NCBI GenBank assembly: GCA_016191165.1
Contig: JACPPF010000173.1
Span: forward strand, 1 to 32,705
Length of the DNA stretch: 32,705 nt
Direction of reading: 5' to 3'
From: Planctomycetota bacterium
Lineage (GTDB): Bacteria; Planctomycetota; Planctomycetia; Gemmatales; Gemmataceae
In this document: piece by piece, positions 2,709 to 28,474 of the stretch
Position numbering within the stretch: position 1 is the stretch's first letter
Layout of the letters: each line of letters starts with the position of its first letter
Notes under the pieces: model-generated
Told to the model about the DNA's origin: nothing
Seen by the model: the letters and a program-made list of their open reading frames with translations, nothing else
The model's database searches: none
Made by a program: the position numbers and the translations under genes

Positions 2709-4889
2709 ATGCGAAAATACCTTCTTACGTTGATCGCCGTCTTCTTGATGGCTTCATCCATTCATGCCCAACTTCCACTCATTCGCCTCGATCGCATCCT
2801 GCCGATTGGCGCCAGGGCGGGGTCGGAGATTACCCTCGAAATCGCGGGCCGCGATCTCGACGATGCCCGGTCGCTGCACTTCGATCATCCCGGCTTCAAA
2901 TCAACTTGGCTCAAAGAACGCCAGTTCAAGGTCGCGATCGCGGCCGATGTGGCCCCCGGAACCTATGAGGTGCGCGCCGTGGGCCGTTTCGGCATCAGCG
3001 GCGCTCGGCTCTTTGCCGTCCAGCATGGTCTGACCGAAATCGCGGAAAAAGAGCCGAACGACGAAGCCGGCAAGGCTCAGGTCGTGCCGTTGAATTCCGC
3101 CATCACCGCGACGAGCGACAACAATGGCGACGACTACTTTCGCTTCACGCTGAAGAAGGGCGAGCGCATCACCGTCGATTGCTTCGCGTATCGGCTCGAT
3201 TCGCAGATGCGGCCCATCTTATCACTGTCGCACGCGATTTCTCCGCCAGCCCCGAGCGCAAGCTCGGGGACATTCAAATCCCCACGCTCGCGCGTGGGGC
3301 TGGTTGGGCAAGTGAAGGAGTTAATGCAGAGCAAGCCGTATTATCATCGCACTGATCCGTTCCTCGATTTCGTCGCGAATGCCGATGGGGACTACATCGT
3401 TGGCGTTCACGACATGACTTACCGCGGCGGGTTGCCGTATCGGCTCGTTATTTCCAATCGTTCGCATATCGAGGCGGCGTTTCCGATGGCGGTTGTGCCC
3501 GGCGCGAAGGCGGAGTTGACGCTTGTCGGACGCAACCTGCGGGGGGGGAAGCGCTCAACCTGGAGGACGCACGATGAACCGCTCGATGTGCTGTCGTGGA
3601 TGTTTGCCCCGCTTGCTGACGCGACTCGACTTGCTGGGCGTTTCACGTTTTCCAATCATCTGCCGTCGCCTACGCTAAACGCGCGCGGGATGCAAGTTTG
3701 GCCCGTGAAGGGCGCGCTCAACCCGATCACGCTGGCATTCGCCGATGCGCCAATCGTGCTCGACAAGGAGCCGAACGATTCGCGCGAGGCGGCCCAGCCA
3801 ATCGCGCTTCCCGCCGTGATTTGCGGGCGATTCGATAAACCGGGCGATGCCGATTGGTATCGTTTCAGGGCCAAAAAGGGGGCGGCATTTGGCGTCGATC
3901 TTTTGTGCGAGCGGCTGGAGCTACCCGGCGATCCCTTCGTGATCGTTTTTGACGCCAAGGGGAACGAGGTCGCGACGTTCGACGATCATGGCATCAACTT
4001 CAACGCCCTCGCGCAATTCAACCGCGATCCGCTGGGCGTTTTGCGCATTCCCGCTGACGGAGAGTACCGGCTCTTCGTGCAGGAGCGCTACCGCAATGGC
4101 GGGGCGCGGTATCAGTATGTTTTGAAGGTCACGAATCTGGAGCCGGACTTTTATCCGGTGCTCGTGCATGAAACGCCGAACGAGCCGTCGTGCCCGTGCG
4201 TGCGCCGCGGCGGGTCGGCGTTCTACGAATTATGTCTTAATAGGCGAAATTACCAGGGGCCGGTCACGATCGAAGCGGAGGGCTTGCCCGCGGGCGTCAA
4301 GTGCGCGCCGGTGCAGGTCAGCCCGCAGGGGCAGTTCGCGCCGATCGTTTTCACGGCCGCGGTTGATGCTCCCGCATGGACCGGCGCGATCAATCTCAAA
4401 GCGTGGGCCATGGTGGACGGCAAGAAGATCGAGCGCGCGGTGCGCCCGGTGCAGCGGCGTTATCCGGTCGCGAACATCAACACCTCGGTGATGCTGCGTG
4501 AAATCTGCCTGGCGGTGCGCGACCAGGCGCCGTACGCGGTTCAACTCCCAACGGAAGAAATGCTTGTGGTCGCCGGTTCGCCGCTCGAAACCACGGCGAA
4601 GGTCGCCCGTCTCTGGCCCGTTTTCAAAGGCAAGGTACAGCTCATCGGCCTCACCTTGCCGCCTGGATTTTCATTCGCCACGACTGACATCCCGGCCGAC
4701 AAGAGCGAGACGAAGATCAAACTCAACATCGCCGCCAACGTCCCGCCTGGTTTATACACCGTGGTGTTGCGCGGTGACGCACAAGTTCCTTATTCGCGCG
4801 ATCCGAAGGCGTCGGCCCGCCCGAACGTGCGCATCGCCGATCCGTCCACGCCGATGTTGGTGCGCGTCGCGCCCAAGGCCAAGAAGTAA
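2709..4889 (+). CDS. Exported protein with two PPC domains
   Basis: A 726-residue protein opening with a clear Sec signal peptide (residues 1-20, MRKYLL then a hydrophobic run, cut after Ala in SIHAQ). An Ig-like N-terminal domain is followed by two PPC (bacterial pre-peptidase C-terminal) domains, each opening with the hallmark KEPND motif: EKEPNDEAGKAQ at about residue 115 with DDYFRFTLKKGE, and DKEPNDSREAAQ at about 353 with DADWYRFRAKKG. The family is exported and abundant in planctomycetes; the domain is beta-rich and has no enzymatic role by itself. The next gene is a DUF1559 protein 131 bases on. Within the first PPC domain a 58-bp palindromic element (3246-3303) is read through in frame, adding about 20 residues (PAPSASSGTF...SRVGLV) that do not look native. 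Function in the cell is unknown. Confidence 0.85.
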   Translation: MRKYLLTLIAVFLMASSIHAQLPLIRLDRILPIGARAGSEITLEIAGRDLDDARSLHFDHPGFKSTWLKERQFKVAIAADVAPGTYEVRAVGRFGISGARLFAVQHGLTEIAEKEPNDEAGKAQVVPLNSAITATSDNNGDDYFRFTLKKGERITVDCFAYRLDSQMRPILSLSHAISPPAPSASSGTFKSPRSRVGLVGQVKELMQSKPYYHRTDPFLDFVANADGDYIVGVHDMTYRGGLPYRLVISNRSHIEAAFPMAVVPGAKAELTLVGRNLRGGKRSTWRTHDEPLDVLSWMFAPLADATRLAGRFTFSNHLPSPTLNARGMQVWPVKGALNPITLAFADAPIVLDKEPNDSREAAQPIALPAVICGRFDKPGDADWYRFRAKKGAAFGVDLLCERLELPGDPFVIVFDAKGNEVATFDDHGINFNALAQFNRDPLGVLRIPADGEYRLFVQERYRNGGARYQYVLKVTNLEPDFYPVLVHETPNEPSCPCVRRGGSAFYELCLNRRNYQGPVTIEAEGLPAGVKCAPVQVSPQGQFAPIVFTAAVDAPAWTGAINLKAWAMVDGKKIERAVRPVQRRYPVANINTSVMLREICLAVRDQAPYAVQLPTEEMLVVAGSPLETTAKVARLWPVFKGKVQLIGLTLPPGFSFATTDIPADKSETKIKLNIAANVPPGLYTVVLRGDAQVPYSRDPKASARPNVRIADPSTPMLVRVAPKAKK
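3246..3303. repeat. Palindromic element inside the PPC gene (CCAGCCCC family)
   Basis: Outer inverted ends CCAGCCCC (3246-3253) and GGGGCTGG (3296-3303) enclose two perfect hairpins: CCCCGAGC/GCTCGGGG with a GCAA loop (3250-3269) and CCCCACGC/GCGTGGGG with a TCGC loop (3280-3299). They are joined by ACATTCAAAT. The same ends and a similar centre occur at 8067-8127 and 14749-14817. Here the element lies within a coding frame and leaves it open. Confidence 0.75.
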
Positions 4890-5020
4890 TTCGGCTTGCG
4901 ACGAGCAAAACGTTTCCGCGAAGCGTCGCCTTTCCGTATCTTGGCGAGACGCCAGGAAATGGTTAGGATACCCGTGCGCCATTTCACCGTGTTCATTTCG
5001 GCAAAATCAGGAGAAATTCC

Positions 5021-5881
5021 ATGAAAGCACGTATCGGACTTTCGGTTCGCCGCGGCCTGGGCTTGCTCGAATTGTTTGTCGTCATCGCCGTCATCGCCTT
5101 CTTGATCGCGCTTTTGGTCCCGGCGATTCAGAAGGTGCGTGAGGCGGCGATGCGCACGCAGTCGATGAACAACCTCAAGCAAATCGGCTTGAGTTTTCAC
5201 AACTTCCAAGACACGAACAAGCGACTCCCATTCAACGGTATGGACGGCGCCGCCGACGGCATCAAATTCAAAGCCGCCGCCGAGGGCAAGAACAGCAATA
5301 GCGGCTCGTGGGCGTTCATGATCCTGCCCTACCTCGAAGAAGGCCCGGCATTCAACAACGTCGATCGCAAACGGCCCATGCCGGTTTTCTTGTGCCCGGG
5401 GCGCGCCCGCCCTCGTTTGGAGGTGTCCAATGGCGGCGGCGGCGCCTGGACCGACTACTTCTACAACGGCTACATGAACAAGGACCCCAAGAAACCCGAT
5501 GGCGGGCCTGCCAAGTACAACCTGGTCGCCATCCCCGATGGCACCTCCAACACCGTCATGGTCGGCCATGGCAACATCAACGCGAAGCAGTACAAGGCCG
5601 ATCGCGATGTGACGCTTTCCACCAACATCTTCAAGGGGGGCACCAATGGCACGCTGCGCGGAGGCGCATTCGGCAAGGGCGAAGACAAGGCCGGCACCGT
5701 CACCATCGCGCGCGATTCCGACAAGGCGCCCACCGTCGGCAGCTGGGGCGGGCCCTTCTCCGGCGGTTTCCTCATTGCGATGTACGACGGCTCCGTGCGC
5801 ATGGTTTCCTACAACGTCACCCCGGCGACCTTTCGCTGGGCACTTATCCCCGACGATGGGAATGCCTTCAGCCTCGATTGA
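5021..5881 (+). CDS. DUF1559 prepilin-like protein
   Basis: A 286-residue protein with a type IV prepilin-like N-terminus: basic residues RRGLG, then LLELFVVIAVIAFLIALLVP, with the conserved Glu five residues after the glycine region. The typical KVREAAMRTQSMNNLKQIGL follows, which is the DUF1559 signature, and near the C-terminus GGFLIAMYDGSVRMVS matches the conserved 'DGSVR' end of the family. The ATG at 5021 has GGAGAA upstream (5010-5015). These are membrane-anchored or pseudopilin-like proteins, hugely expanded in planctomycetes and of unknown role. The N-terminal motif is slightly divergent (GLGLLEL instead of GFTLIEL), so cleavage by prepilin peptidase is uncertain. Confidence 0.92.
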   Translation: MKARIGLSVRRGLGLLELFVVIAVIAFLIALLVPAIQKVREAAMRTQSMNNLKQIGLSFHNFQDTNKRLPFNGMDGAADGIKFKAAAEGKNSNSGSWAFMILPYLEEGPAFNNVDRKRPMPVFLCPGRARPRLEVSNGGGGAWTDYFYNGYMNKDPKKPDGGPAKYNLVAIPDGTSNTVMVGHGNINAKQYKADRDVTLSTNIFKGGTNGTLRGGAFGKGEDKAGTVTIARDSDKAPTVGSWGGPFSGGFLIAMYDGSVRMVSYNVTPATFRWALIPDDGNAFSLD

Positions 5882-5922
5882 TTTTCCGAAAAGACCCCGA
5901 AATCCGGGAACGAAACCGTGCC

Positions 5923-5947
5923 GGGCCTCCAATTCCCTTGGAGGCCC
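5923..5947 (+). terminator. Hairpin after the DUF1559 gene
   Basis: A perfect 10-bp stem, GGGCCTCCAA/TTGGAGGCCC, with a 5-base loop, 42 bases after the DUF1559 stop. There is no T-tract, so it may be a Rho-assisted terminator, a 3'-end stabiliser or a palindromic repeat. Confidence 0.35.
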
Positions 5948-6101
5948 AGCGCCGGCGAGCGGCTCCGGGGTGTCCCGCCCCGGGTATTCGGGCCCGAACC
6001 TGCGCCTAACAAACTTGACCCCGTGGGTCGTGCCGAATAGGATCAATAAACGGGGCGCGACATGCCACCCCTTTTTTTTCGACCACGGGAAGGTTCCCTT
6101 C

Positions 6102-6809
6102 ATGAAGGCTGAACAACGCAAGGAACTGGAAACCAACACCCTGGCCGACCGCATGGGCCATGTGGTCCAGCGCGTCAAGACCGGCCAGCGCCGCACGATG
6201 CTGATCTATTTTGTCGCCGTGGCGGGTCTGGTCATCGCCACCTGGGTTGGCTACCGCTGGTGGTACAGTGGCGTCGAGGAAACCTCCGTGCGCTGGCTGA
6301 ACTTCTACGACGGCGGCGGGGACTACCTTTCCTCCCTGGCCGGGAAGGATTTGAGTACTCCGGAAGGTAAAGCAGCGCGTTTGCAAATTGCCTGGATTCT
6401 CTACTGGGACGAGGGCGTCAAGTGGATTGGCGCCAACCAGGGCCGGGGCATCGCCGGCCTCAAGAAAGCCTCCGAGTTCTATGAGGAACTCGTCACCGCG
6501 TGCGAAAAAGACAAAGTCCTGCAGCCCCAGGCCATGCTCGGTCATGCTGCCTGTGAGGAAAACCTGGCCGTGCTCGATCCTGCCAAGAGGTTACGCAAGG
6601 CGCGCGATCTTTACGAAGAGCTCGTCAAAAAACACCCCGAAAGCGCGGAAGCGAATTTCGCCCGCGAACGCCTTGAAATTCTCAATGACGCCAAAAAGAC
6701 CGAGAAACTCGTGGCGACCTATACCACCATCGATCAAGTCCTTCGCATCCGACTCATGGCGGAGTTGCAGCGCATGAAAGTGCCTAACCTGAAAGGGCTT
6801 CCGAAATAG
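6102..6809 (+). CDS. Membrane-anchored protein with TPR-like helices
   Basis: A 235-residue protein. The start chosen is ATG 6102 (MKAEQRKELE), with GGGAAGG 10 bases upstream (6088-6094). A longer frame reaches back to 5646 but overlaps the DUF1559 gene in another frame and looks like a shadow. A cytoplasmic basic stretch is followed by one transmembrane helix (about residues 33-52, MLIYFVAVAGLVIATW). The rest is helical, with pieces such as LRKARDLYEELVKKHPESAEANFARERLEIL that look like tetratricopeptide repeats. A scaffold or envelope role is plausible; no partner is visible. It lies upstream of the pseudouridine synthase gene, separated from it by a palindromic element. Confidence 0.75.
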   Translation: MKAEQRKELETNTLADRMGHVVQRVKTGQRRTMLIYFVAVAGLVIATWVGYRWWYSGVEETSVRWLNFYDGGGDYLSSLAGKDLSTPEGKAARLQIAWILYWDEGVKWIGANQGRGIAGLKKASEFYEELVTACEKDKVLQPQAMLGHAACEENLAVLDPAKRLRKARDLYEELVKKHPESAEANFARERLEILNDAKKTEKLVATYTTIDQVLRIRLMAELQRMKVPNLKGLPK

Positions 6810-6826
6810 CCCCGAAACGCTTTCAG

Positions 6827-6965
6827 GCCTGGTTCAATGCATCGATTCCAGGGTAACATTCACTCAGCGTGCCGCCGGGCTTGTCCAGGCGGGGTATCAG
6901 GCTTGATTGGGATGCACCGCCGGGACAATCCAGTCGGCTCACTGTGACCTTTACCTGAACCAGGC
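6827..6965. repeat. Palindromic element, GCCTGGTTCA family
   Basis: Inverted ends GCCTGGTTCA (6827-6836) and TGAACCAGGC (6956-6965) enclose 119 bases that carry GCCGCCGGGCTTGTCC and ACCGCCGGGACAA. The reverse complement of its right arm aligns closely with the left arm of the element at 13813-13939: both read GGTTCAGGT, AAGGT, then TTGTCCC at the same spacing. It fills most of the spacer between the TPR-like gene and the pseudouridine synthase gene. Confidence 0.7.
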
Positions 6966-7006
6966 GCGTTTTCAAGGCTGGTCCCGGGCATATCGATGCG
7001 GCCCAC

Positions 7007-8059
7007 ATGAACGTTCCTATCTTCTCTGACGATCTTCCCGACGACGAACAGGTCGAAGAACTGCTGCCCATCCCCGGCATCGGGCGGGCGATCGAACTCA
7101 ACGTGCAACTCAAGACCTCCGGCATGAGGCTCGATCAATACCTCGTCCTGCAATTTCCCGACTTTAGCCGTTCACTTCTACAAAAGGCGATCGAGGCCGA
7201 CAGCGTCAAGATCAATGACCTGCCGATCAAACGCAGCACGAAGGTCAAGCAGGGCGATCGCGTTCGTATCTGGCTGCCCGAACCCGAACGGCCGGATCCG
7301 GCGCCGGAGAATATTCCGCTCGAAATTCTCTACGAGGACGAGTTTCTCGCCGTGGTAAACAAGCCCTACAACATGGTGGTGCATCCCGCGCGGGGCAACT
7401 GGTCGGGCACGCTCGTCAACGCGCTGGCGTTTCATTTCCAGCACCTGAGTACGTTGAACGGCGCGTATCGCCCGGGCATCGTCCATCGCCTGGACCGCGA
7501 CACCTCCGGCGCCATCCTCGTCGCCAAGGAAGAGAAGACGCACCGCGACCTCGGCATGCAATTCGAAACGCGCAAGATCTTCAAGGAATACGTCGCCATC
7601 ACCCAGGGCGTGCTCGACCGGGACAGCGATTACATTGAACGGCGGATCGATCATCATCCGCACGACCGTATCAAAATGATCGTCACCGACGACACAGAAA
7701 AAGGCAAGGACGCTTGCACCTATTACGAGGTCGAAGAGCGTTTTCGCGGATACACGTTCGTGCGCTGCCAGCCGCGCACCGGAAGGACCCATCAGATTCG
7801 CGTGCATCTGGCCAGCGTTGGCTGTCCGGTACTGGCGGACAAGGTATACAGCGGGCGCGATGGTTTTCGCCTTTCCGACCTATCACCAAATCTCGGCGCC
7901 GATCAGGATGAAATCCTCATGCACCGCCAGGCGCTCCATGCGAAGCGGTTGCGACTGATCCATCCGCGCACGCAAAAGCCGATCGCCGTCGAGGCGCCGT
8001 TGCCGGCGGAGTTTGTCCGAACCCTGGCGGCGCTGCGAGAGCATCGCCCGGGGCGGTAG
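7007..8059 (+). CDS. RluA/RluD-family 23S rRNA pseudouridine synthase
   Basis: A 350-residue protein with an N-terminal S4 RNA-binding domain (about residues 38-95, MRLDQYLVLQF...VKQGDRVRIWLP) and a pseudouridine synthase domain. The catalytic motif HRLDRDTSG is at residues 160-168, with Asp163 as the expected nucleophile; IVHRLDRDTSGAILVAK and QPRTGRTHQIRVHLA are both strong family signatures. It converts uridines to pseudouridine in RNA, most likely 23S rRNA as in RluD. The N-terminal 35 residues are longer than in E. coli RluD. There is no strong ribosome binding site at ATG 7007, but no better start is seen. A palindrome 7 bases after the stop may end the transcript. Confidence 0.93.
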   Translation: MNVPIFSDDLPDDEQVEELLPIPGIGRAIELNVQLKTSGMRLDQYLVLQFPDFSRSLLQKAIEADSVKINDLPIKRSTKVKQGDRVRIWLPEPERPDPAPENIPLEILYEDEFLAVVNKPYNMVVHPARGNWSGTLVNALAFHFQHLSTLNGAYRPGIVHRLDRDTSGAILVAKEEKTHRDLGMQFETRKIFKEYVAITQGVLDRDSDYIERRIDHHPHDRIKMIVTDDTEKGKDACTYYEVEERFRGYTFVRCQPRTGRTHQIRVHLASVGCPVLADKVYSGRDGFRLSDLSPNLGADQDEILMHRQALHAKRLRLIHPRTQKPIAVEAPLPAEFVRTLAALREHRPGR

Positions 8060-8066
8060 GTATTTC

Positions 8067-8127
8067 ACCAGCCCGCGGCGCAAGCAAGGGGCGTACTCAA
8101 GATCCCCTGCTTGCGCTGCGGGCTGGT
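8067..8127. repeat. Palindromic element between convergent genes (possible bidirectional terminator)
   Basis: A long near-perfect inverted repeat: ACCAGCCCGC at 8067-8076 pairs with GCGGGCTGGT at 8118-8127, continuing inward through GCGCAAGCA/TGCTTGCGC and GGGG/CCCC with one or two mismatches. The ACTCAAGATCCCC centre matches the ATTCAAAGCGATCCCC of the copy at 14749-14817. It lies between the pseudouridine synthase stop and the convergent amidohydrolase stop, so it could end both transcripts. Confidence 0.75.
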
Positions 8128-8153
8128 AGACGAAGTGCGGCACGAGAGGTTTG

Positions 8154-9107
8154 TCAATTCAGTCCATAAAATCGAATCGCATTGTCATGGAATAGCTTGC
8201 GCTGGTCGGCGGCGGTGCGGTTGCTCACGATGGTGCCAAGCGCCTCAACCCACTGGCGATAGGTTGCCCGCAGCGTGCAGACCGGCCAGTCGCCCGCGAA
8301 CATCACCCGGTCGGGGCCAAACGTGTTGAGCGAATGGTTGATGACCGGCGCCAGGTCTTTCGCCGTCCATTCTTTCCGTGCCTGGACTACGATGCCGGAA
8401 ATTTTGCACACGACGTTGTTCATGCGCGCAAGCGCCTGCATGTCGCGCTGCCATTGTGTGCGATTCTTGGCATACACCGGGCCGTTGCCGCAATGGTCGA
8501 GAATAAAACGGGTGTCCTTACAGGATTCGACGAGTTTGACGGCATCGCCGATCTCGGCGGGCCTCATGCACAGATCGAAGCTCAGGCCTTGAGCGCCCAG
8601 AAGGCGAACGCCGCGGACGAAGCCCGGCGTCAGGCAGAAGCCCGCCTTGGCGGAGGGGTTGTGCAAGACCTGGCGCACGCCCTTCAGGTGCCGATTGCCG
8701 CGGAAACGCTGGAGGTACTTGCCAAAATCCTCCGCCGCGGGCCTGCCGCCGATGACTGCGGCGACGAGGGGCGTGTTGCCCTGCCGGCAGATTTCCAGCA
8801 CGTACTCGGCCTCGGCGACGAGTTGTTTGGGATCGACATCCACCTCCATGTAGACGCCCTTGACGACGTTGAGCCCGGTGGTCGCCGTGCGAAAGTCCTT
8901 GATAAGGTGGCTGCGCGCCAGCGGCGAGTTTTTTTCAAGCCACGGCAGCCGGAAGCGAGTCAGGTCCCAAAGGTGAACGTGCGTGTCAACGATGCGCTGG
9001 GCGGCCGGTTGTTTGGCGCCCTGCTCGTTGAACACGGGGGCCGCACTGGCGACGGTCGCGGCGGCGGCGCTCACGGCGGCGCCTGTCAGGAACTCTCGGC
9101 GTTTCAT
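8154..9107 (-). CDS. Tat-exported amidohydrolase-2 family protein (COG3618-like)
   Basis: A 317-residue protein beginning MKRREFLTGAAVSAAAATVA, a twin-arginine-type signal peptide ending near ASAA (about residue 23). The metal-dependent TIM-barrel signature DTHVHLWDL places HxH at His43 and His45; ILDHCGNGPV supplies a further His and MFAGDWPVC the conserved Asp (Asp273). This family includes L-rhamnono-1,4-lactonases and related sugar-lactone or decarboxylase-like hydrolases; the substrate here is unknown. It follows the larE operon genes by 66 bases on the same strand, with a small palindrome in that gap, and may be co-transcribed. Confidence 0.88.
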   Translation of the reverse strand: MKRREFLTGAAVSAAAATVASAAPVFNEQGAKQPAAQRIVDTHVHLWDLTRFRLPWLEKNSPLARSHLIKDFRTATTGLNVVKGVYMEVDVDPKQLVAEAEYVLEICRQGNTPLVAAVIGGRPAAEDFGKYLQRFRGNRHLKGVRQVLHNPSAKAGFCLTPGFVRGVRLLGAQGLSFDLCMRPAEIGDAVKLVESCKDTRFILDHCGNGPVYAKNRTQWQRDMQALARMNNVVCKISGIVVQARKEWTAKDLAPVINHSLNTFGPDRVMFAGDWPVCTLRATYRQWVEALGTIVSNRTAADQRKLFHDNAIRFYGLN

Positions 9108-9131
9108 GGTGTGAACCTCGTTTGGAGGGAT

Positions 9132-9160
9132 CCCCAGGTTTCGCTGCGCTCCTCCTGGGG
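9132..9160. repeat. Small palindrome with TTCGCTGCGCTC core
   Basis: CCCCAGG (9132-9138) pairs with CCTGGGG (9154-9160) around a loop containing TTCGCTGCGCTC. The same loop with the same type of arms occurs at the right arm of the inverted repeat between atpD and atpC (28436-28462), so both likely belong to one repeat family. Confidence 0.55.
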
Positions 9161-9173
9161 CCTGGGTGGAGTT

Positions 9174-9437
9174 TCAATAGCGCGGCTTGGGCTTGTCCCA
9201 GGCGGGATCGTATTCCAGCGAGAAGATTTGCTGGATGCGTTCGGCCCGGCCGCCGGATTGATCGTGCAGGACTTCCAGGGCTTTGCGGATATTCTCGATG
9301 CGCGGGTCGGTCGCGAGCACCTCGCCCGTTTCCTGGCCGCGATTGATGCGATCGAGAATGCCGGCGATATCAAGTAGCTTGGAGCGAGCCTCGAAGAAGT
9401 ATTGTTCGAGCGCCTTGCTCGCGGGCAGGGTTTTCAT
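9174..9437 (-). CDS. Small conserved-looking protein of unknown function
   Basis: An 87-residue soluble protein, MKTLPASKALEQYFFEAR..., mostly helical, ending in DPAWDKPKPRY. Its start overlaps the stop of the preceding gene (ATGA, 9434-9437), which is strong evidence for translation in an operon with it. It contains no Cys, no membrane segment and no motif I can name. Its place after larE and another small gene does not reveal a job. Confidence 0.7.
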   Translation of the reverse strand: MKTLPASKALEQYFFEARSKLLDIAGILDRINRGQETGEVLATDPRIENIRKALEVLHDQSGGRAERIQQIFSLEYDPAWDKPKPRY

Positions 9438-9676
9438 GACTTGCCTCCCTTTTTCTTTGCGCGCTTTTCAGCGTACTCCACACCGGTAATGTGCAAGAGC
9501 GAGCACCGAACGACATGATCTCGGTCGGGGTCGGGATACCAAATGTAAAGGCTGGCGCCGGTCACCAAAACCTGTTCGGGATGAGTGATTTGGTATACAT
9601 CGCCGCTTGACAAATGCACCTCAAACGGTTCGAACGGTTGGGCTCGAACAAGTTCGCGCAGGGAATCACCGCTCAT
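9434..9676 (-). CDS. Small protein of unknown function (larE neighbour)
   Basis: An 80-residue protein, MSGDSLRELVRAQPFEPFEV, followed by a predicted beta-rich region HLSSGDVYQITHPEQVLV and a basic tail KRAKKKGGKS. It resembles small planctomycete hypothetical proteins that share the pattern 'LR.LV.AQPF.PF.VHL..G..Y.I.HPE'. ATGA overlaps at both ends (9673-9676 with larE and 9434-9437 with the next gene) tie it into one polycistronic unit. I recognise no catalytic residues. Confidence 0.72.
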   Translation of the reverse strand: MSGDSLRELVRAQPFEPFEVHLSSGDVYQITHPEQVLVTGASLYIWYPDPDRDHVVRCSLLHITGVEYAEKRAKKKGGKS

Positions 9677-10584
9677 CGCGCCTCTCCTTCGATCAGTTCT
9701 TGATTCCGCACTCGCATTTCCAGGGGAATCAATTCGTTCAGGCTGCCGCTGCGGAAGCCCTCTAGGTCGAGCGTAACGTAGCGAAAGCCGAGGGTCTTGA
9801 GATATCGTACAAGGTCGGCGCGGGTGTGTGGATCAGCCAGGTTGGCGAGGCTTTCGGGCCCAACCTCGATGCGTGCCAGCTCGCCCTCATGTAGGCGGAC
9901 GCGGAACTCGCGGTGGCCAAGTTTTTTTAGATAGGCCTCCGCCGCCTCGATGCGCGCGGTTCTTTCGGTCGTAACCGTGACGCCGGGCGCAAGTCGGCTG
10001 GACAGGCACGGCGACGCGGGCTTGTCCCAGGTCGGCAGGTTCCACACTTGCGCCAGGGCGCGCACGTCGGCCTTCGTGAAGCCAGCTTCCTGCAACGGAT
10101 GACGAACCCGGTGCTCGGATGCCGCGACCAGGCCCGGGCGATAGTCGCCGCGATCATCGAGATTGGCGCCGCTACAAATGACCAGGGCCTGGCCTCGCCT
10201 CACTGTGGAGGAGGCGTCCGGGGTGAAGGGCACGTCGCATTCCAGGATTGGCAGCAATTCCTCGATTTGGCTGTAGAGTTCATCCTTGCAATGGTAGCAA
10301 CGCGTGCCGTCGTTCTTGACATAATCCGGATTCGCAAACTCCGTCGTCGTGACGGTGCGATGGCGAATGCCAATTCGGGCGGCGAGTTCCTTCGCTTCGG
10401 CAAGTTCCGCGCGTGGCACACTGGGACTGTCCGCGGTAACGGCAACGGCGGCGTCGCCCAGGGCGAGGAACGCCGCCTGCGCGACGACCGTGCTGTCGAT
10501 CCCGCCGCTAAAGGCGACCGCGACACGCTTCAGGCCGCGCAACACCTCCAGCAAGCGCTCGCGTTTGTTTTCGAGGTCGGTCAT
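9673..10584 (-). CDS. larE: ATP-dependent sacrificial sulfur transferase LarE
   Basis: A 303-residue protein. The PP-loop SGGIDST (residues 26-32) adenylates the substrate, and NDGTRCYHCKDELY (Cys96, Cys99) and SPCLSSRLAPG (Cys193) are LarE hallmarks; Cys193 sits where the sulfur-donor Cys of Lactobacillus LarE is expected. LarE puts sulfur onto the pyridinium dicarboxylate precursor of the nickel-pincer nucleotide cofactor of lactate racemase and relatives. Three cysteines could instead hold an iron-sulfur cluster, as reported for other LarE proteins. The start chosen is ATG at 10584 (MTDLENKRER); the longer frame upstream has no family similarity. No larA, larB or larC is visible in the window. 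A loop of about 15 extra residues (DVPFTPDASSTVRRG) precedes the VICSGANLDD motif. Confidence 0.9.
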   Translation of the reverse strand: MTDLENKRERLLEVLRGLKRVAVAFSGGIDSTVVAQAAFLALGDAAVAVTADSPSVPRAELAEAKELAARIGIRHRTVTTTEFANPDYVKNDGTRCYHCKDELYSQIEELLPILECDVPFTPDASSTVRRGQALVICSGANLDDRGDYRPGLVAASEHRVRHPLQEAGFTKADVRALAQVWNLPTWDKPASPCLSSRLAPGVTVTTERTARIEAAEAYLKKLGHREFRVRLHEGELARIEVGPESLANLADPHTRADLVRYLKTLGFRYVTLDLEGFRSGSLNELIPLEMRVRNQELIEGEAR

Positions 10585-10663
10585 TTCGTTATCATAAAGG
10601 GAATGTGACGGAAGCTCAAGCGATAGGTTGACGCGCAAACAACGACTTGCACCCATTTTCCGC

Positions 10664-10693
10664 TTGCCCACGCGGGGACGGCTCGCGTAAGAT
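10664..10693 (+). promoter_or_regulatory. Possible sigma-70-like promoter for the DUF1501 gene
   Basis: TTGCCC (10664-10669) and TAAGAT (10688-10693) are separated by 18 bases in the gap between the divergent larE and DUF1501 genes. Both hexamers match only four of six consensus bases, so this is weak. Confidence 0.25.
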
Positions 10694-10753
10694 AAACTCG
10701 TCCTGCCCCGATTGCCGATAGGGACAGCAGCCCTCCCGCCAAGGACCATGACG

Positions 10754-12310
10754 ATGTTGACCGTACTGGGTTCCCCGAAACGCCTGTGCGACGGCGTGAC
10801 GCGCCGCGAGGCGCTAGTCGCTGGCGGCCTGAGCATGTTCGGGTTGGGCCTCAGCGATTTCTTTCGCCTCCAGGACGCGCAAGCGTCCGAACCTCGGCGT
10901 GAGAGAAGCTTCGGGCAGGCAAAGGCGTGCATCCTGATTTTTCTCTATGGCTCGCCGAGTCAGCTCGAGTTGGCCGACCAGAAGCCGAACGCCCCGGTGG
11001 AGATTCGCGGCGAGCTCGGTTCGATCCGTTCGACGTTGCCGGGCTGCGATGTTTGCGAGTTGTTGCCCAGTGTTTCCCGAATCATGGACAAGATGACGGT
11101 GGTGCGTTCGATGACGCACCCGCATCCGATCCACGGCGTGGCGTATGCGACGACCGGAACGCCCGTGATCGACATTCCGATGGAGCTCAATCCGCGCGAT
11201 GGTCGGCATCATCCGTATATCGGCTCGGTCGTCGATTACCTGCTGCGCAACAACCTCGTCTTCCCCTCTCCCTCCGGGAGAGGTGCCGGCCGTGAGGGGA
11301 CGCGCCGATCGCGCACCGCGCGAACTCCCGACAACATCGCCTTACCGTTTCAGTTCTCGAGCCATCGCGTCGGCGAGGTGCCGCGCGCGGGGCCTTACGG
11401 CGCTTTTCTTGGCAATGCGTACAACCCGCTCTGGACCGAGTTTCAAGGTCGGGCGACGCGGGTCGCCGTCAAAACGCTGCAGGATCAGCGTTTTGAAGAC
11501 GTCGAGCCGTATGTAGGTATTTCCGATGATAGCCGATTCAGCCTCGCCGCGGCGACCAACCTGGGCCCGCAGCTGACGATCGACCGTCTGAACCAGCGAC
11601 GTTCGCTCCTTCAGCAGCTGGATCAAGCCCGGCGTGAGGCGGAAAACTCTCCCAGCGGGATAGGGGAGTCTGGGCTAGACCGCTATCGCGAGATGGCCTA
11701 TTCGTTGATTGGCTCGCAACGCATTCATGCCGCCCTTGATCTTGGCCGCGAACCGATGGCGTTGCGGGACAGCTATGGCATGACCCTCTTCGGCCAGGGT
11801 TGCCTCACGGCGCGACGGCTGGTGGAAGCGGGCAGCAAGTTTGTCAGCGTTTTCTGGGACGAATACGGCCTGGCAGGCTCCGGTTGGGACACCCACTGGG
11901 ACCACTACAATCGCATGAGAAACGAGTTGATGCCCGGCTTCGACCGCGGTCTGGCGGGACTCATCGGTGACCTCGACCAGCGCGGCATGTTAGACGATAC
12001 CCTCGTGATGGTCTTGAGCGAGCACGGCCGAACGCCGCGCATCAACAACGCGCGCGGCGGCGGGCGCGATCACTGGTCGCAAGCCTACACGACGCTTTTC
12101 GCTGGCGGCGGTGTGGCGCGCGGGCGCGTTGTCGGACGCACGGATCGCCATGGCGCCACAGTCACCGAACGTCCGGTCTCGCCCAAAGATGTCCTGGCCA
12201 CCGCCTACCACTTGCTCGGCATTGACCCGCATACCCTGCTCAACGATCGCACGGGACGTCCAGTTCCTTTGGTGCAGGATGCTCATGTCGTCACCGAGAT
12301 GCTAGGGTAA
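10754..12310 (+). CDS. DUF1501 protein (sulfatase-like, Tat-type N-terminus)
   Basis: A 518-residue protein. ATG 10754 is chosen because AAGGA (10741-10745) lies 8 bases upstream and because MLTVLGSPKRLCDGVTRREAL is the usual family opening; ATG 10748 is only 2 bases from that site. TRREAL followed by a hydrophobic stretch suggests Tat export. Family motifs include ACILIFLYGSPSQLELADQKPN, MTHPHPIHG, and near the end MVLSEHGRTPRINNARGGGRDHW, matching the alkaline-phosphatase-like metal-binding end. DUF1501 proteins are numerous in planctomycetes and often pair with DUF1549/DUF1553 cytochrome-like proteins, none of which is here. At about residues 170-182 a palindromic element encodes PSPSGRGAGREGT, which looks inserted between NNLVF and the native ARTPDNIALPFQF. 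Confidence 0.9.
   Translation: MLTVLGSPKRLCDGVTRREALVAGGLSMFGLGLSDFFRLQDAQASEPRRERSFGQAKACILIFLYGSPSQLELADQKPNAPVEIRGELGSIRSTLPGCDVCELLPSVSRIMDKMTVVRSMTHPHPIHGVAYATTGTPVIDIPMELNPRDGRHHPYIGSVVDYLLRNNLVFPSPSGRGAGREGTRRSRTARTPDNIALPFQFSSHRVGEVPRAGPYGAFLGNAYNPLWTEFQGRATRVAVKTLQDQRFEDVEPYVGISDDSRFSLAAATNLGPQLTIDRLNQRRSLLQQLDQARREAENSPSGIGESGLDRYREMAYSLIGSQRIHAALDLGREPMALRDSYGMTLFGQGCLTARRLVEAGSKFVSVFWDEYGLAGSGWDTHWDHYNRMRNELMPGFDRGLAGLIGDLDQRGMLDDTLVMVLSEHGRTPRINNARGGGRDHWSQAYTTLFAGGGVARGRVVGRTDRHGATVTERPVSPKDVLATAYHLLGIDPHTLLNDRTGRPVPLVQDAHVVTEMLG
11262..11300 (+). repeat. Palindromic element inside the DUF1501 gene (PSPSGRG family)
   Basis: TCCCCTCTCCCTCCGGGAGA followed by GGTGCCGGCCGTGAGGGGA. 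It aligns at about 28 of 36 positions with the element in atpG (25871-25910), in the same orientation and reading frame, giving PSPSGRGAGREG here and PSPSGGGVGGEG there. The flanking protein resumes the family sequence on both sides. Confidence 0.75.
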
Positions 12311-12378
12311 AATGCTAAAGAAGCGTGGCGGGCATTCCGCGCTCTCCTTCGGGTCGCAGCTAAACACGATCCATTCCC

Positions 12379-12873
12379 ATGTTCACGCCGATCCTTGCCA
12401 CGCTGGGTTATGTTCTGTCGCCGGACCGTACTCAGACCCTACTTATTCACCGCAATCGCCGCGCTGATGATCCCCATTTCGAGAAATTCAACGGCCTGGG
12501 AGGCAAGCTAAACGCAAACGAGGACATCGTCGCCGGAATGAGGCGGGAAATCCGTGAGGAAGCGGGAATCGAATGCACCGCACTCCATCTGCGCGGCACC
12601 ATCAGCTGGCCGGGGTTCGGAAAGCAAGGCGAGGACTGGTTTGGGTTCATCTTCCTGATCGACGCCTGGACCGGTACCCCGAAGCCTGACAACCCGGAAG
12701 GAACGCTGGCCTGGGTTGCGCTGGACAAGATTCTCGACCTGCCGCTCTGGCCCGGGGATCGCCACTTCGTGCCGTTGGTGTTTGATGTGACCGTTCAACA
12801 ATTCCATGGCGTGATGCCGTATTCGGAAGGAAAACCCGTGAGCTGGAGTTGTTCCACCTCGATAACCCGTTAG
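12379..12873 (+). CDS. NUDIX hydrolase (MutT/8-oxo-dGTPase-like)
   Basis: A 164-residue protein with a perfect Nudix box, G-x5-E-x7-REUxEExGU, at residues 42-64 (GKLNANE ... MRREIREEAGI). The N-terminal MFTPILATLGYVLSPD and the following TLLIHRN and EKFNGLGGKL agree with MutT-type 8-oxo-dGTP or nucleoside triphosphate pyrophosphohydrolases, which clean oxidised nucleotides from the pool. The C-terminal YSEGKPVSWS is also typical of this subgroup. No good ribosome binding site precedes ATG 12379. The stop codon abuts a long palindrome. It lies 68 bases after the DUF1501 gene on the same strand. Confidence 0.9.
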   Translation: MFTPILATLGYVLSPDRTQTLLIHRNRRADDPHFEKFNGLGGKLNANEDIVAGMRREIREEAGIECTALHLRGTISWPGFGKQGEDWFGFIFLIDAWTGTPKPDNPEGTLAWVALDKILDLPLWPGDRHFVPLVFDVTVQQFHGVMPYSEGKPVSWSCSTSITR

Positions 12874-12921
12874 CCGGACGCGCGAGCGACGGATTAAGCA
12901 ATCCGTCGCTTGCGCGTCCGG
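12874..12921. repeat. Long hairpin directly after the NUDIX stop
   Basis: A 22-bp stem (12874-12895 with 12900-12921) with one mismatch and a 4-base loop, starting at the base after the stop codon. Arms begin CCGGACGCGC and end GCGCGTCCGG. No T-tract follows. It may act as a terminator, but its form fits the palindromic repeats found through this window. Confidence 0.65.
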
Positions 12922-12956
12922 GTATACTGCACGCGCTCGAGATTGGCACAATGGTT

Positions 12957-13017
12957 ACGAGTCGCTTCCGTGAGGGAGCGGGAACCGGCCCAACGCTCCG
13001 TCACGGTCGCGGCTCGT
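12957..13017. repeat. Inverted repeat, GAGTCGCTTCCG type
   Basis: Left arm 12957-12980 and right arm 12994-13017 match over 24 bases with four mismatches, around a 13-base centre. The arms contain CCGTGAGGGAGCG and CGCTCCGTCACGG. It lies between the convergent NUDIX and FHA genes, 35 bases after another palindrome. Confidence 0.6.
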
Positions 13018-13067
13018 TAAAAAGGATGTGTCATTTCGTGGCGCGTGTGGCATAACAGGGCTCGCCA

Positions 13068-13514
13068 TCAATCGGGTTTCGCGGACGTCGGCTCGGATTT
13101 TTGCGGTGAAAGGGGCGAGGGGGCTTCTCGGGTATCAGTAAGGATGGGCTGATTGGTGGTCGTTTCGTCCTGATCCACGAGGGCCGTGTCCTTCATGGAA
13201 ACGTCACCCAGATTCGTTTCGCATTCCATCAACACTTCAAGAACGAGCGGCCCGATCTGGAGGGTATCGCCGTTGGAAAGGACCTGTTCGCCTGCGACGA
13301 GCTGACCGTTGATGAGCGTGCCGTTGCGGCTGCCCAGGTCCCGAATGAGCGCGCGCTCTCCGGCAACCTGGAGCAGGCAATGTTGCCGGCTGACCAGATC
13401 GCTATTGGGGCGAACGTCGCACTCGGGGCCACGTCCAAACATGAATTCGCCAACAGGGAACGACAGGCAGTGTCCCTGGGGCTTGCCTTTGACCACCTTC
13501 ATGCGCAACTGCAT
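13068..13514 (-). CDS. FHA-domain protein
   Basis: A 148-residue cytoplasmic protein. The start is ATG at 13514 (MQLRMKVVKG), preceded by AAGGAG with 5-base spacing; the frame continues 16 codons upstream without a binding site. The FHA domain spans about residues 20-100 with all key elements: FGRG (Gly27, Arg28), VSRQH (Ser42, Arg43, His45) and GSRNGTLING (Asn64, Gly65, Asn69). FHA domains bind phosphothreonine, usually in Ser/Thr kinase signalling, which planctomycetes have in abundance. The C-terminal 45 residues are Ser/Thr/Pro-rich and probably disordered (DQDETTTNQ) and could carry a phosphorylation site. No kinase gene lies in the window. Confidence 0.9.
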   Translation of the reverse strand: MQLRMKVVKGKPQGHCLSFPVGEFMFGRGPECDVRPNSDLVSRQHCLLQVAGERALIRDLGSRNGTLINGQLVAGEQVLSNGDTLQIGPLVLEVLMECETNLGDVSMKDTALVDQDETTTNQPILTDTREAPSPLSPQKSEPTSAKPD

Positions 13515-13733
13515 GAACACTCCTTCTGACGGGAAAAAGTGCGCAGCGAAAGTTGCAGCCACTCTTCGAAAGGAGGGAGCGAGGGAACCCCCTCAAACGA
13601 GCGGGAATCGGCTGACCTTGGAATTAGCGCACAGATCGATGCGCCGCAAATCATTTAGGACGCACTAATCCGATTGTAGCAGGTTGGCTTGGCGGATTCA
13701 AAGCAAATTCGACCAAATACGAAAAATCGCGTG

Positions 13734-13745
13734 CCCCCCCCCCCC
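13734..13745 (+). repeat. C12 homopolymer
   Basis: Twelve consecutive C residues in a spacer. It is not inside a supported gene. It is prone to slippage and sequencing error, so its length should be treated with care. Confidence 0.9.
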
Positions 13746-13812
13746 AAGGCCCTTACCGTACCAGCATCAAAGGGGTTGTCGCGCTACAACAGCGGAGGGT
13801 ATGATGAATATG

Positions 13813-13939
13813 GCTTGGTTCAGGTGAAGGTTCCAGCGGCCCGCCGGACTTGTCCCGACACAGGATGGTTCACCGGCGGGACAAGCCCGGCGGCTCGCGG
13901 ATAGATTGGCGCCCAAGAATTGACGGATTTGAACCAGGC
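13813..13939. repeat. Palindromic element, GCCTGGTTCA family (second copy)
   Basis: Ends GCTTGGTTCA (13813-13822) and TGAACCAGGC (13930-13939). Inside, GCCGGACTTGTCCC and GGGACAAGCCCGGCGG form a second nested inverted pair. The left arm aligns with the reverse complement of the right arm of the 6827-6965 element. It ends 46 bases before the start of the UVR-motif gene. Confidence 0.7.
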
Positions 13940-13984
13940 CATGAAAACAAAGGGCCCGTGATCCTTTTTGATGAGGTAGACGTA

Positions 13985-14719
13985 GTGAATCAGGACATGG
14001 ACTTCATCCTGAAAGATTGGGAGTTCAAGCCCGGAGTTGCCCAGGCGAGGCTGATTCAGGCGCGCGACGGGCGCCAGGTCATCCAGCTGCGCATTGACCT
14101 CGGCTTGTTGCAACTGGAGACCACCGGCCGACCGGATGGTGCGCGACCCCACGGCCATGCGACTTTTTTCGAGCATTTGCGCGAACAAGCAAGGTTGTCC
14201 AAGAAGGCCGAGGGGTCTTTCACGCTGAGCGACGAGCAATGCCAGGACGCCGATCGCGAGTTCTTGCAGTTTTACCATCGCCGCATGTGCTGGCTGGCGC
14301 TGAGGCAGTACCCGCGTGCCATCAAGGATGCCGACCATACGCTGGCATTCATGGATTTCGTCAAGCGTCATGCCCCGAACGAGGACTATTTGAACGCGCA
14401 TGAGCAATACCGCGGCTTCGTGTTGTTTCAGCGCACGCAGGCGGCTGCCGCGCTGGCGGTTGAGAACGAAACCCCGCAGAAGGCCATCGAGGAAATCCAC
14501 GCAGGCCTCGATCGACTGCGCGAGTTCTTCGCCTCCTACGAGCGCGAGGAAGACCTGGAGGAGAGCGGTATGGTTCAGCATCTTCGTCATGTCGAGGCGT
14601 CGTTACGGCAGCAGTTCAAGATCGGCCCCACGCTCCAGGAACAATTGCAGCAAGCCATCGCCGACGAAGACTACGAACGCGCCGCCCGCCTGCGCGACAA
14701 GATGAAAGAAAACGAATGA
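13985..14719 (+). CDS. UVR-motif (UvrB/UvrC-type) protein
   Basis: A 244-residue soluble protein. GTG 13985 is chosen because GAGG (13973-13976) lies 8 bases upstream; ATG 13997 (MDFILKDWEF) is the alternative and is where family similarity starts. The N-terminal half (LKDWEFKPG, RQVIQLRIDLGLLQLE, GRPDGARPHGH) resembles a planctomycete family that couples a conserved region of unknown role to a UVR motif. The C-terminal 27 residues, EQLQQAIADEDYERAARLRD, are a clear UVR motif, the short helical hairpin by which UvrB and UvrC, or McsA-type proteins, interact with partners. Longer frames upstream read through the palindromic element and are not likely. A role in protein interaction is inferred. 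Confidence 0.82.
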   Translation: MNQDMDFILKDWEFKPGVAQARLIQARDGRQVIQLRIDLGLLQLETTGRPDGARPHGHATFFEHLREQARLSKKAEGSFTLSDEQCQDADREFLQFYHRRMCWLALRQYPRAIKDADHTLAFMDFVKRHAPNEDYLNAHEQYRGFVLFQRTQAAAALAVENETPQKAIEEIHAGLDRLREFFASYEREEDLEESGMVQHLRHVEASLRQQFKIGPTLQEQLQQAIADEDYERAARLRDKMKENE

Positions 14720-14748
14720 CGCCTAATAACCACAAATTCGATGAGGTA

Positions 14749-14817
14749 CTAGCCCCACGCGCCAGCGTGGGGTTTGCCCGAATTCAAAGCGATCCCCACG
14801 CTTTCGCGTGGGGCTGG
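14749..14817. repeat. Palindromic element (CCAGCCCC family, third copy)
   Basis: CTAGCCCCACGC at the left and GCGTGGGGCTGG at the right form the outer pair. Two inner hairpins are visible: CCCCACGC/GCGTGGGG on the left (14753-14772) and CCCCACGC/GCGTGGGG with a TTTC loop on the right (14794-14813). The linker GAATTCAAAGCGATCCCC matches those at 3246-3303 and 8067-8127. It lies between the UVR-motif and DUF1573-like genes, just ahead of the latter's ribosome binding site. Confidence 0.75.
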
Positions 14818-14850
14818 TAGGCTACCATGCGTCGAGGAGAACCTTGTCCC

Positions 14851-16275
14851 ATGCAAAGCTCCGATCCCATTCCCGCCGTTCCGAAGCGCTTCGGAAATCG
14901 GGCCGCGGTGCAATACGCGATCGCGATGGCCCTGCTGGTTGCGGTGGTCGGCGGCATCACCTGGTGGAAGCTGAATTCCCGCGGCGGGAGCACCGTCAAG
15001 AAAACCGCGGGCGACAAGGGCAAGGGCAAGGATGTGCTCTCGTTTCCTCACTCGAATATCGCGGTGTGGTACAAGAACCAGGATGCCGACCCGGAAGCCA
15101 AGGAAAAGGAGCCGATTCAGTTCAAGGATTTTGAACCCGGCACGAAGGGGCATTACGACTTCTTGTTCAAAAACGTTTTCGACGGTGACGTGGACATCGT
15201 CTCATACGCCAGCACTTGCGATTGCGCGAACGTGAAGGCATGCGTCTTGCCGGCCGACGACTGGCAGCGAGCTTTGAAACTCCAGGCGTCCGACCCCGGA
15301 GCGACCTTGTTGTATGCTCGTGAGCCAGGTTGGCATGACCTGCCCATTCGCAAGGAGAAACCCGACCCGGACCAAGCGAGCCTGCCCGGTGTACGCGTCA
15401 AGGCGGGCGAAGTGGGCGTCATCCGCGTCGCATGGACTGCCAATAAGGCGCCCGGACAGGAATTGCGAATCTACCCGTATATCTACGTTCAGCCCGCCAG
15501 CGATCAGTCGCGTCTTTTTTTCATGCCACTGAACGTTGGCGTCAAGATGCGGTTGCCCCTTCAGTTTTACCCACCCAGGGCTGTCACGGGCGCGGTGACG
15601 CCCGGTTCCATTCGCACGGCGAAATTCATCGCCTGGTCAGCCACGCGCGACAAATTGGATTTCGAGTTGCTCTTGGTTCCGCCCGACCCGCTTTTTTCCA
15701 TCGAGACCAAACCGAGCAGTGCCAAGGCCCACGCCGCCCTGAAGGCGGAACTGACCAAGCTTGGCCTGGGCTCGCACATCGCAGCCGCTTTTGAAGTGAC
15801 CGTGACCGTGCGCGAGTCCTTGAAAGGTTCCAGGGGCCTCCAACAACTCGAACAGGGCGTTTTCTTCCGTAAGTTCCAGGTCAAGTTCAATGGCCAATTC
15901 GATGAATCCATCCCCGGACCCGAAGTCGTAGGTCGCGTGGAAGGTGACATTCAGATCGGCGGCACCGACGACAAGGGGAAGATACGCTTCAAGCCTTTCG
16001 AGGCTCAGGCCGAAACCCGCAAGACCATTCACCTGGCGGCGGACGCCAAGTTCGTCCTGCAGCACCACTCGCACAAGCCAGACTGGATCAAGGTCCGACT
16101 CGAGCGTGAGACGAAAAAACCGGCCGACGGCCAACACCTTTGGCTTCTGGAGGTGACCATTCCCGCGAATACGCTGGACGTGCGCTCCTTCGACGAACGC
16201 GATGCCGTCGTCGTGCGTATCGCGGGCACGCCTGAGCGGTTCGTGCGCATCCCGCTTGAAGGCGTTGTTCGATAG
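14851..16275 (+). CDS. Membrane-anchored DUF1573-like protein
   Basis: A 474-residue protein. ATG 14851 (MQSSDPIPAV) is preceded by GAGGAGA (14834-14840); ATG 14827 lacks a site and abuts a palindrome. One transmembrane helix lies at about residues 20-39 (VQYAIAMALLVAVVGGITWW). The first outer domain, FKDFEPGTKGHYDFLFKN followed by STCDCANVKAC, matches the DUF1573 pattern (an Ig-like beta domain, HYDF..KN, then a short Cys-rich turn). The rest is beta-rich with no motif I can name. It is probably a periplasmic or cell-surface protein. The Rrf2 regulator gene follows 162 bases later. Confidence 0.75.
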   Translation: MQSSDPIPAVPKRFGNRAAVQYAIAMALLVAVVGGITWWKLNSRGGSTVKKTAGDKGKGKDVLSFPHSNIAVWYKNQDADPEAKEKEPIQFKDFEPGTKGHYDFLFKNVFDGDVDIVSYASTCDCANVKACVLPADDWQRALKLQASDPGATLLYAREPGWHDLPIRKEKPDPDQASLPGVRVKAGEVGVIRVAWTANKAPGQELRIYPYIYVQPASDQSRLFFMPLNVGVKMRLPLQFYPPRAVTGAVTPGSIRTAKFIAWSATRDKLDFELLLVPPDPLFSIETKPSSAKAHAALKAELTKLGLGSHIAAAFEVTVTVRESLKGSRGLQQLEQGVFFRKFQVKFNGQFDESIPGPEVVGRVEGDIQIGGTDDKGKIRFKPFEAQAETRKTIHLAADAKFVLQHHSHKPDWIKVRLERETKKPADGQHLWLLEVTIPANTLDVRSFDERDAVVVRIAGTPERFVRIPLEGVVR

Positions 16276-28373: not shown

Positions 28374-28379
28374 CCAGCC

Positions 28380-28462
28380 CAAGCCCCGGGGTGAGCGCAG
28401 CGAACCCCGGGGATCGCCGCGTGCAATATCCCAGAGGTTCGCTGCGCTCACCCCTGGGCTTG
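28380..28462. repeat. Long inverted repeat between atpD and atpC
   Basis: Left arm 28380-28406 and right arm 28436-28462 match at 26 of 27 positions around a 29-base centre; a smaller hairpin CCCCGGGGT/ACCCCGGGG lies inside the left part. The right arm's TTCGCTGCGCTC recurs at 9132-9160. A transcript would fold into a very stable hairpin 12 bases before the atpC start. Confidence 0.8.
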
Positions 28463-28474
28463 AAACAAAACATC

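Follow-up and report, generated by a model that had tools for sequence, protein, structure and literature searches.

The window considered here, the whole 32,705-nucleotide stretch of a Planctomycetota bacterium genome that was analysed, harbors three palindromic elements, one inside a gene (E1) and two in spacers (E2 and E3), which raises the question of whether they belong to a single family and by what means such a family could have come to occupy both genes and spacers. The source genome is a fragmented assembly of 7.23 Mb in 183 contigs, of which the window is contig 160. The relevant features are listed below; no strand is assigned to the palindromes, and their bit scores are those of R1, a covariance model built from 12 copies, the E-values of which are rough.

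2709-4889, + strand: E1 host gene, encoding a 726 amino acid PPC-domain protein (PF04151 at 380-455)
3246-3303: E1 palindrome, a free copy inside the PPC-domain gene (R1: 68.1 bits)
7007-8059, + strand: RNA pseudouridylate synthase gene, left of E2 (PF00849, PF01479)
8068-8126: E2 palindrome, rod type GCG/TGC (R1: 70.7 bits)
8154-9107, - strand: amidohydrolase gene, right of E2 (PF04909)
12869-12924: fourth element of the same superfamily, with the foot GTTA-GCCGGACGCGCGAGCGACGG (R1: 31.1 bits)
13850-14719, + strand: UVR-motif protein gene, left of E3 (PF02151)
14749-14817: E3 palindrome, between two + strand genes (R1: 62.7 bits)
14827-16275, + strand: gene right of E3, with a weak DUF1573 match (PF07610; 20.1 bits, below the cut-off of 26.1)

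The three elements lie where the first-pass annotation had placed them, with the limits of E2 corrected from 8067-8127 to those given above. E2 is situated between convergent genes, the stop codons of which lie 8 bp and 27 bp away. The box types of E1 (CGA/TCG and CAC/GTG) and E3 (CAC/GTG and again CAC/GTG) are twin-compatible and compatible with both rod and twin, respectively. When folded as DNA and compared with shuffled sequences, E1, E2 and E3 have z-scores of -5.2, -9.1 and -7.5, with no shuffle equalling them, while that of the fourth element is -11.2. The foot of this fourth element provides the TAG stop codon of the gene at 12379-12873, and DNA resembling its flank (GCTCGAGATTGGCAC) recurs next to copies elsewhere (L020:15228; L079:9463). 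A further long imperfect inverted repeat (CAAGCCC..GGTGAGCGCAGCGAACC...GGTTCGCTGCGCTCACC..GGGCTTG), with only a weak R1 match, is found at 28374-28464 of the window.

E1, E2 and E3 are copies of one palindrome family, with the common frame (T)ACCAGCCC-nnn-GCGCAAGC-nnnGGG-loop-CCCnnn-GCTTGCGC-nnn-GGGCTGGT(A). The heptamer CCAGCCC by itself is not rare in the window (eight seen versus 5.5 expected); the paired ends CCAGCCC...GGGCTGG, by which the elements had initially been grouped, are matched 14 times in 384 kb as against twice for the reversed control, and this shared feature is upheld. The centre that had also been considered common to the elements (TTCAAA or ACTCAAG) is not, as the full pattern occurs in only two genome copies and other loops differ; TTCAAA was thus rejected as a family mark. 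The genome-wide covariance search proposed by the first-pass annotation revealed many further copies, with at least 150 scored strand-matches to R1 at no fewer than approximately 90 distinct places in the genome of origin. A sample of approximately 324 kb, which was not selected for matches, contains seven to nine copies, from which a genome total of approximately 150-200 is extrapolated. R1 matches are present in all six same-genus genomes and in 24 of 59 genomes overall (own genome included), with nothing found in the other 35, while a search against Rfam gave no match.

Among 115 unique copies, 113 have enough flanking sequence for sorting: 44 lie inside MITE1, eight inside MITE2 and 61 are free, approximately 45% of the copies being nested within larger palindromic MITEs. 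MITE1 is itself palindromic, approximately 155 bp long, and carries the family palindrome as its core (GTTTAGCC..ATACCGTTCGTC..palindrome..GACGAACGGTAT..GGCTAAAC), with examples in the own genome at L036:1501 and L076:5092; its ends (GTTTAGCC) look like a foot plus GCC. In the 61 free copies, approximately ten variable rod positions keep their pairing far above the level of 500 shuffles, which bears out the earlier observation of compensatory change in the arms. Many double changes are observed (e.g. position 9: C-G in 29 copies, G-C in 27), the counts of which are not independent events since the copies are related. By complementarity, 32 free copies can form a rod only, 16 a rod or twin hairpins, and eight, including those of E1's type, twin hairpins only; the remaining five are mostly chimeras of halves, and halves are exchanged between subtypes. 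The internal hairpins noted at first sight thus hold for a subset of copies, while E1-E3 fold best as one rod, which is also the predicted minimum in all six examples folded. Twin hairpins were considered as the general fold and rejected, as most copies with within-half complementarity form one MITE1-carried subfamily in which the rod is the predicted minimum even so.

The first-pass annotation had further proposed that a REP-associated (RAYT) transposase gene be sought elsewhere in the genome. Eleven Y1_Tnp matches of several kinds are present, and three of the genes (C104, C106 and C3, of which C3 contains a stop codon) form one group of class 3-type HUH/Y1 transposases flanked on both sides by palindromes of the E1-E3 family kind, each by its own subtype (CAC, GGA and GAA, respectively). 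The same gene-plus-palindrome layout is observed in three sister species (G002, G003 and G004) and in a member of another family of the same order (G043). An alignment of the two intact proteins (C104 and C106) reveals the motifs NHVH, WWT and YVVEGQ/YVLERQ, which are class 3 motifs. Judged by RAYT protein, the named genome closest to the own genome is the MAG Planctomycetia bacterium F1-60-MAGs120. Both proteins fall below the cut-off of the NCBIfam models IS200 and REP_Tyr_transpos (27.7 and 30.9 bits versus 80 for the latter), and no solved relative was found by sequence. A scan of 84,980 species genomes yielded 80 named RAYT loci, nearly all in Planctomycetota. Strong inverted repeats occur at 70 of these, on both sides in 28, on one side in 27 and only as arms around the gene in 15, compared with 0/80 shuffled and 4/69 displaced controls. 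The flanked class 3-type genes, together with the repeats at 70 of the 80 loci, indicate a REP/RAYT-like family. Some R1-rich genomes have no RAYT match (e.g. G005) or only distant ones, so that copy number follows the presence of a RAYT only loosely; losses, assembly gaps or other mobilisers are possible reasons. At another RAYT locus of the own genome (C14, L007), the frame of a different Y1 transposase opens with repeated RRQAGKPDLRR peptides, which probably represent a translated second repeat family.

The feet of the palindromes across the RAYT loci read ACCA, ACAA, ACTA, ACGA, CTGA, TTGA and GTTA. That of the own C104 and C106 loci is ACCA and that of G004 is CTGA, with ACAA, ACTA and GTTA among the others, while the class 3 foot is given as CnGA by Quentin et al. 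2018 (PMC6006769). The foot letters cluster on the RAYT tree, a weakly supported tree from which near-copies had been removed, requiring 29 changes versus a shuffled mean of 34.5, with 0/500 shuffles as low. As judged from these sequences, the family would fit class 3 with a changed foot. According to the same study (PMC6006769), class 3 TnpA-Y1 proteins occur in Planctomycetes, Acidobacteria and Proteobacteria, carry the HuH motif NHVH, W[TA] and YV[VI]xxQ (Y----Q), have atypical flanking structures with a CnGA foot, reach high copy numbers (approximately 600 in Solibacter) and possibly stand between IS and REPtron. The system described here resembles that account (PMC6006769) in its motifs, planctomycete host, hairpin-flanked gene and many copies; it differs from class 3 as described there in its dominant ACCA foot (CTGA, however, in a sister species), and its 54-75 nt rods, twin-fold subtype and MITE nesting were not found in the consulted parts of that account.

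We consider it probable (approximately 0.8) that E1-E3 represent non-autonomous members of a palindromic, REP-like family with a partner class 3 RAYT. The RAYT genes lie between full palindromes, or between two arms that serve as terminal inverted repeats. The RAYT would recognise the single-stranded hairpin plus its foot (ACCA in this case, with different letters elsewhere among the lineages), cleave it and rejoin it, by which the palindrome could reach new sites. Copies would then persist mainly just 3' of genes and where a protein loop can take up approximately 19-24 extra residues, and some may have been carried further within larger palindromic MITEs, of which they form the core. We infer the spreading of the palindromes by the RAYT, and mobility throughout, from empty orthologous sites and recurrent insertions in the sequences compared. 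The suggestion in the first-pass annotation of a folded form that spreads is in agreement with the compensated arms, the many copies and the associated RAYT-type transposase.

The family shares with the GTAG REP/RAYT and REPIN systems (Nunvar 2010, PMC2817692; Bertels and Rainey 2011, PMC3116915; Di Nocera 2013, PMC3733652) the palindromes flanking a Y1 transposase, the many dispersed copies, the bias towards gene 3' ends and the occurrence of some copies within ORFs. Unlike those, it lacks the GTAG foot and its unit is the whole palindrome with both feet. The GT[AG]G foot and class 2 RAYT of canonical GTAG REPs are replaced here by an ACCA foot and a transposase below the REP_Tyr_transpos cut-off, and of the separable inverted units that mark REPINs, half-chimeras were observed, as was a single half-unit within a PSD1 loop. 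The 15 arms-only loci recall TIRYT/TIRtrons, in which a tyrosine transposase lies between long inverted repeats (Di Nocera 2013, PMC3733652), although the arms here are halves of a dispersed palindrome. Rickettsia palindromic elements (Ogata 2002, cited in PMC3733652) likewise add residues to proteins in frame, but are unrelated in sequence, and the family described here is accompanied by a family of partner transposases and enters one loop recurrently. The kind of repeat is already known, while its repeated in-frame landing in the loop of one protein family is an unusual habit.

The approximately 20 residues encoded by E1 (PPAPSASSGTFKSPRSRVGLV) fall at a variable turn, around residues 178-200, of a PPC-type domain. 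The element is absent from the 74% identical orthologs in G001 and G003, in line with the earlier reading of E1 as an in-frame insertion of approximately 20 residues. The G001 ortholog has an unrelated short expansion instead, and a copy of its own lies just downstream of this gene (L152:19891-19948). For the E2 and E3 sites, no syntenic blastn match was found in sister contigs that do not end earlier. Thirteen copies are truly internal to genes, ten of which fall in one length class modulo 3, versus 26/84 outside genes (Fisher p = 0.004). Hosts other than PSD1 proteins include an MgsA-type AAA+ ATPase and two presumably essential enzymes, an alanyl-tRNA synthetase and a class I (isoleucyl-type) tRNA synthetase, with in-frame copies at L262:9261-9317 and L073:19106-19169, respectively.

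Six of the 13 truly internal copies are located in PSD1 (DUF1553) paralogs, which account for 18 of 1,401 predicted genes (binomial p ~1e-6 with length weighting, in a sample enriched for copies). Seven PSD1 hosts are known in the own genome, the seventh being L299, and two in the sister species G002. The native loop, of four residues, is bounded by ..HPELLDWLA.EF on one side and W-[SNT]-x-[KR]..H on the other; the inserts all lie there and are all translated as (T/S)SPxR..G...LARGAG-like peptides, in paralogs sharing only 36-50% identity. In a PSD1 tree constructed with the loop omitted, insertions of the family require eight changes (at least six by strongly supported branches), and the family has thus entered this loop independently at least six times; other long inserts at the loop, mostly repeats, require 12 changes (at least ten). 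Ortholog groups within the genus include loops that hold the palindrome, loops that hold another insert and empty ones (L345/L293/L334; L333/L018/L324). Other translated repeats (PFSRPPLAGE..LAKGERLN; SPLPSGGEGPGVRG) occupy the loop in L293, L018, L023, L335, L318, L325, L328 and L165. Elsewhere in the bacterial family, the top-scoring PSD1 domains of other genera nearly all keep the four-residue loop, while domains picked for length are expanded at the same site, mostly by no recognisable repeat. The simplest reading is that the PSD1 loop tolerates inserts. Among the papers searched, none was found that connects DUF1553 either to palindromes or to insertions and repeats.

The possibility that the elements are chance hairpins of a GC-rich genome, to which the commonness of CCAGCCC alone could point, is refuted by the copy number, end-pair control, fold z-scores and covariation, and is given practically no weight. 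Another explanation is that the palindromes are kept mainly as RNA elements, acting as transcript ends, mRNA stabilisers or terminators, with selection on RNA pairing producing the compensation. Genes for this comparison were called approximately, with a home-made gene finder based on codon scores, which gave a coding density of 0.86. Among 103 placed copies, convergent spacers hold 28, tandem spacers 48 and divergent spacers 11, as compared with 12, 51 and 24 expected from spacer bases, with convergent spacers enriched 2.4-fold, divergent ones depleted and a median distance of 28 bp to a gene 3' end. This distribution is as an RNA role would have it, but loss of promoter and gene insertions gives the same positional bias, which fits either insertion tolerance or a putative transcript-end role. 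The remaining 16 copies lie within genes and palindromes surround transposase genes, neither of which favors the RNA explanation. E2, moreover, which had been proposed as a terminator between the convergent genes, has no T-tract and no terminator-like site, and is therefore not an intrinsic terminator. We regard a mainly RNA-based origin of the pattern as improbable.

Only slightly less credence is given to the copies being remnants spread by other elements, such as the 155-bp MITE, with the RAYT merely exploiting the same hairpins. The 52 MITE-borne copies, and the finding that MITE1 arms lacking the palindrome were not clearly found, accord with such an origin; E1-E3 are, however, among the 61 copies that lack such flanks, as are 15 of the 16 in-gene copies, and the arms match the RAYT-flanking repeats. 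Alternatively, the PSD1 pattern might reflect the element's preference for a DNA target and not the tolerance of the protein loop, a proposal we find doubtful. The element starts 191 nt past the PSD1 domain start in six hosts and uses one reading frame in all PSD1 hosts, as a target preference would predict, but unrelated repeats (PFSRPPLAGE.., SPLPSGGEG..) and non-repeat expansions occupy the same loop, and, apart from the MITE arms, no strong target motif is seen next to the element at its other sites. An overlap of the target with native GGCTGG codons at PSD1 was also considered and rejected, given that the junction reads GGT followed by TGG and that unrelated repeats share the loop.

Peptides of the TSPxRKRG...LARGAGW kind are translated repeats, which is of importance for annotation. 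Class 3 was described in 2018 as needing experiments (PMC6006769), and this poorly studied transposase class is now tied to approximately 80 loci at which the cognate repeats can be read, the feet vary and the arms covary, which makes foot recognition directly testable. We offer as a speculation, and one more likely wrong than right, that the PSD1 loop is a recurrent landing site for several palindrome families, with the loops of approximately 20 residues kept for changed binding or action. If so, mobile DNA would represent a loop-diversifying device in the abundant PSD1 proteins of planctomycetes. Within a single genus, the PSD1 loops of orthologs and paralogs stand empty, filled or filled by something else, and this natural series can be used to study the conversion of a mobile repeat into protein sequence.
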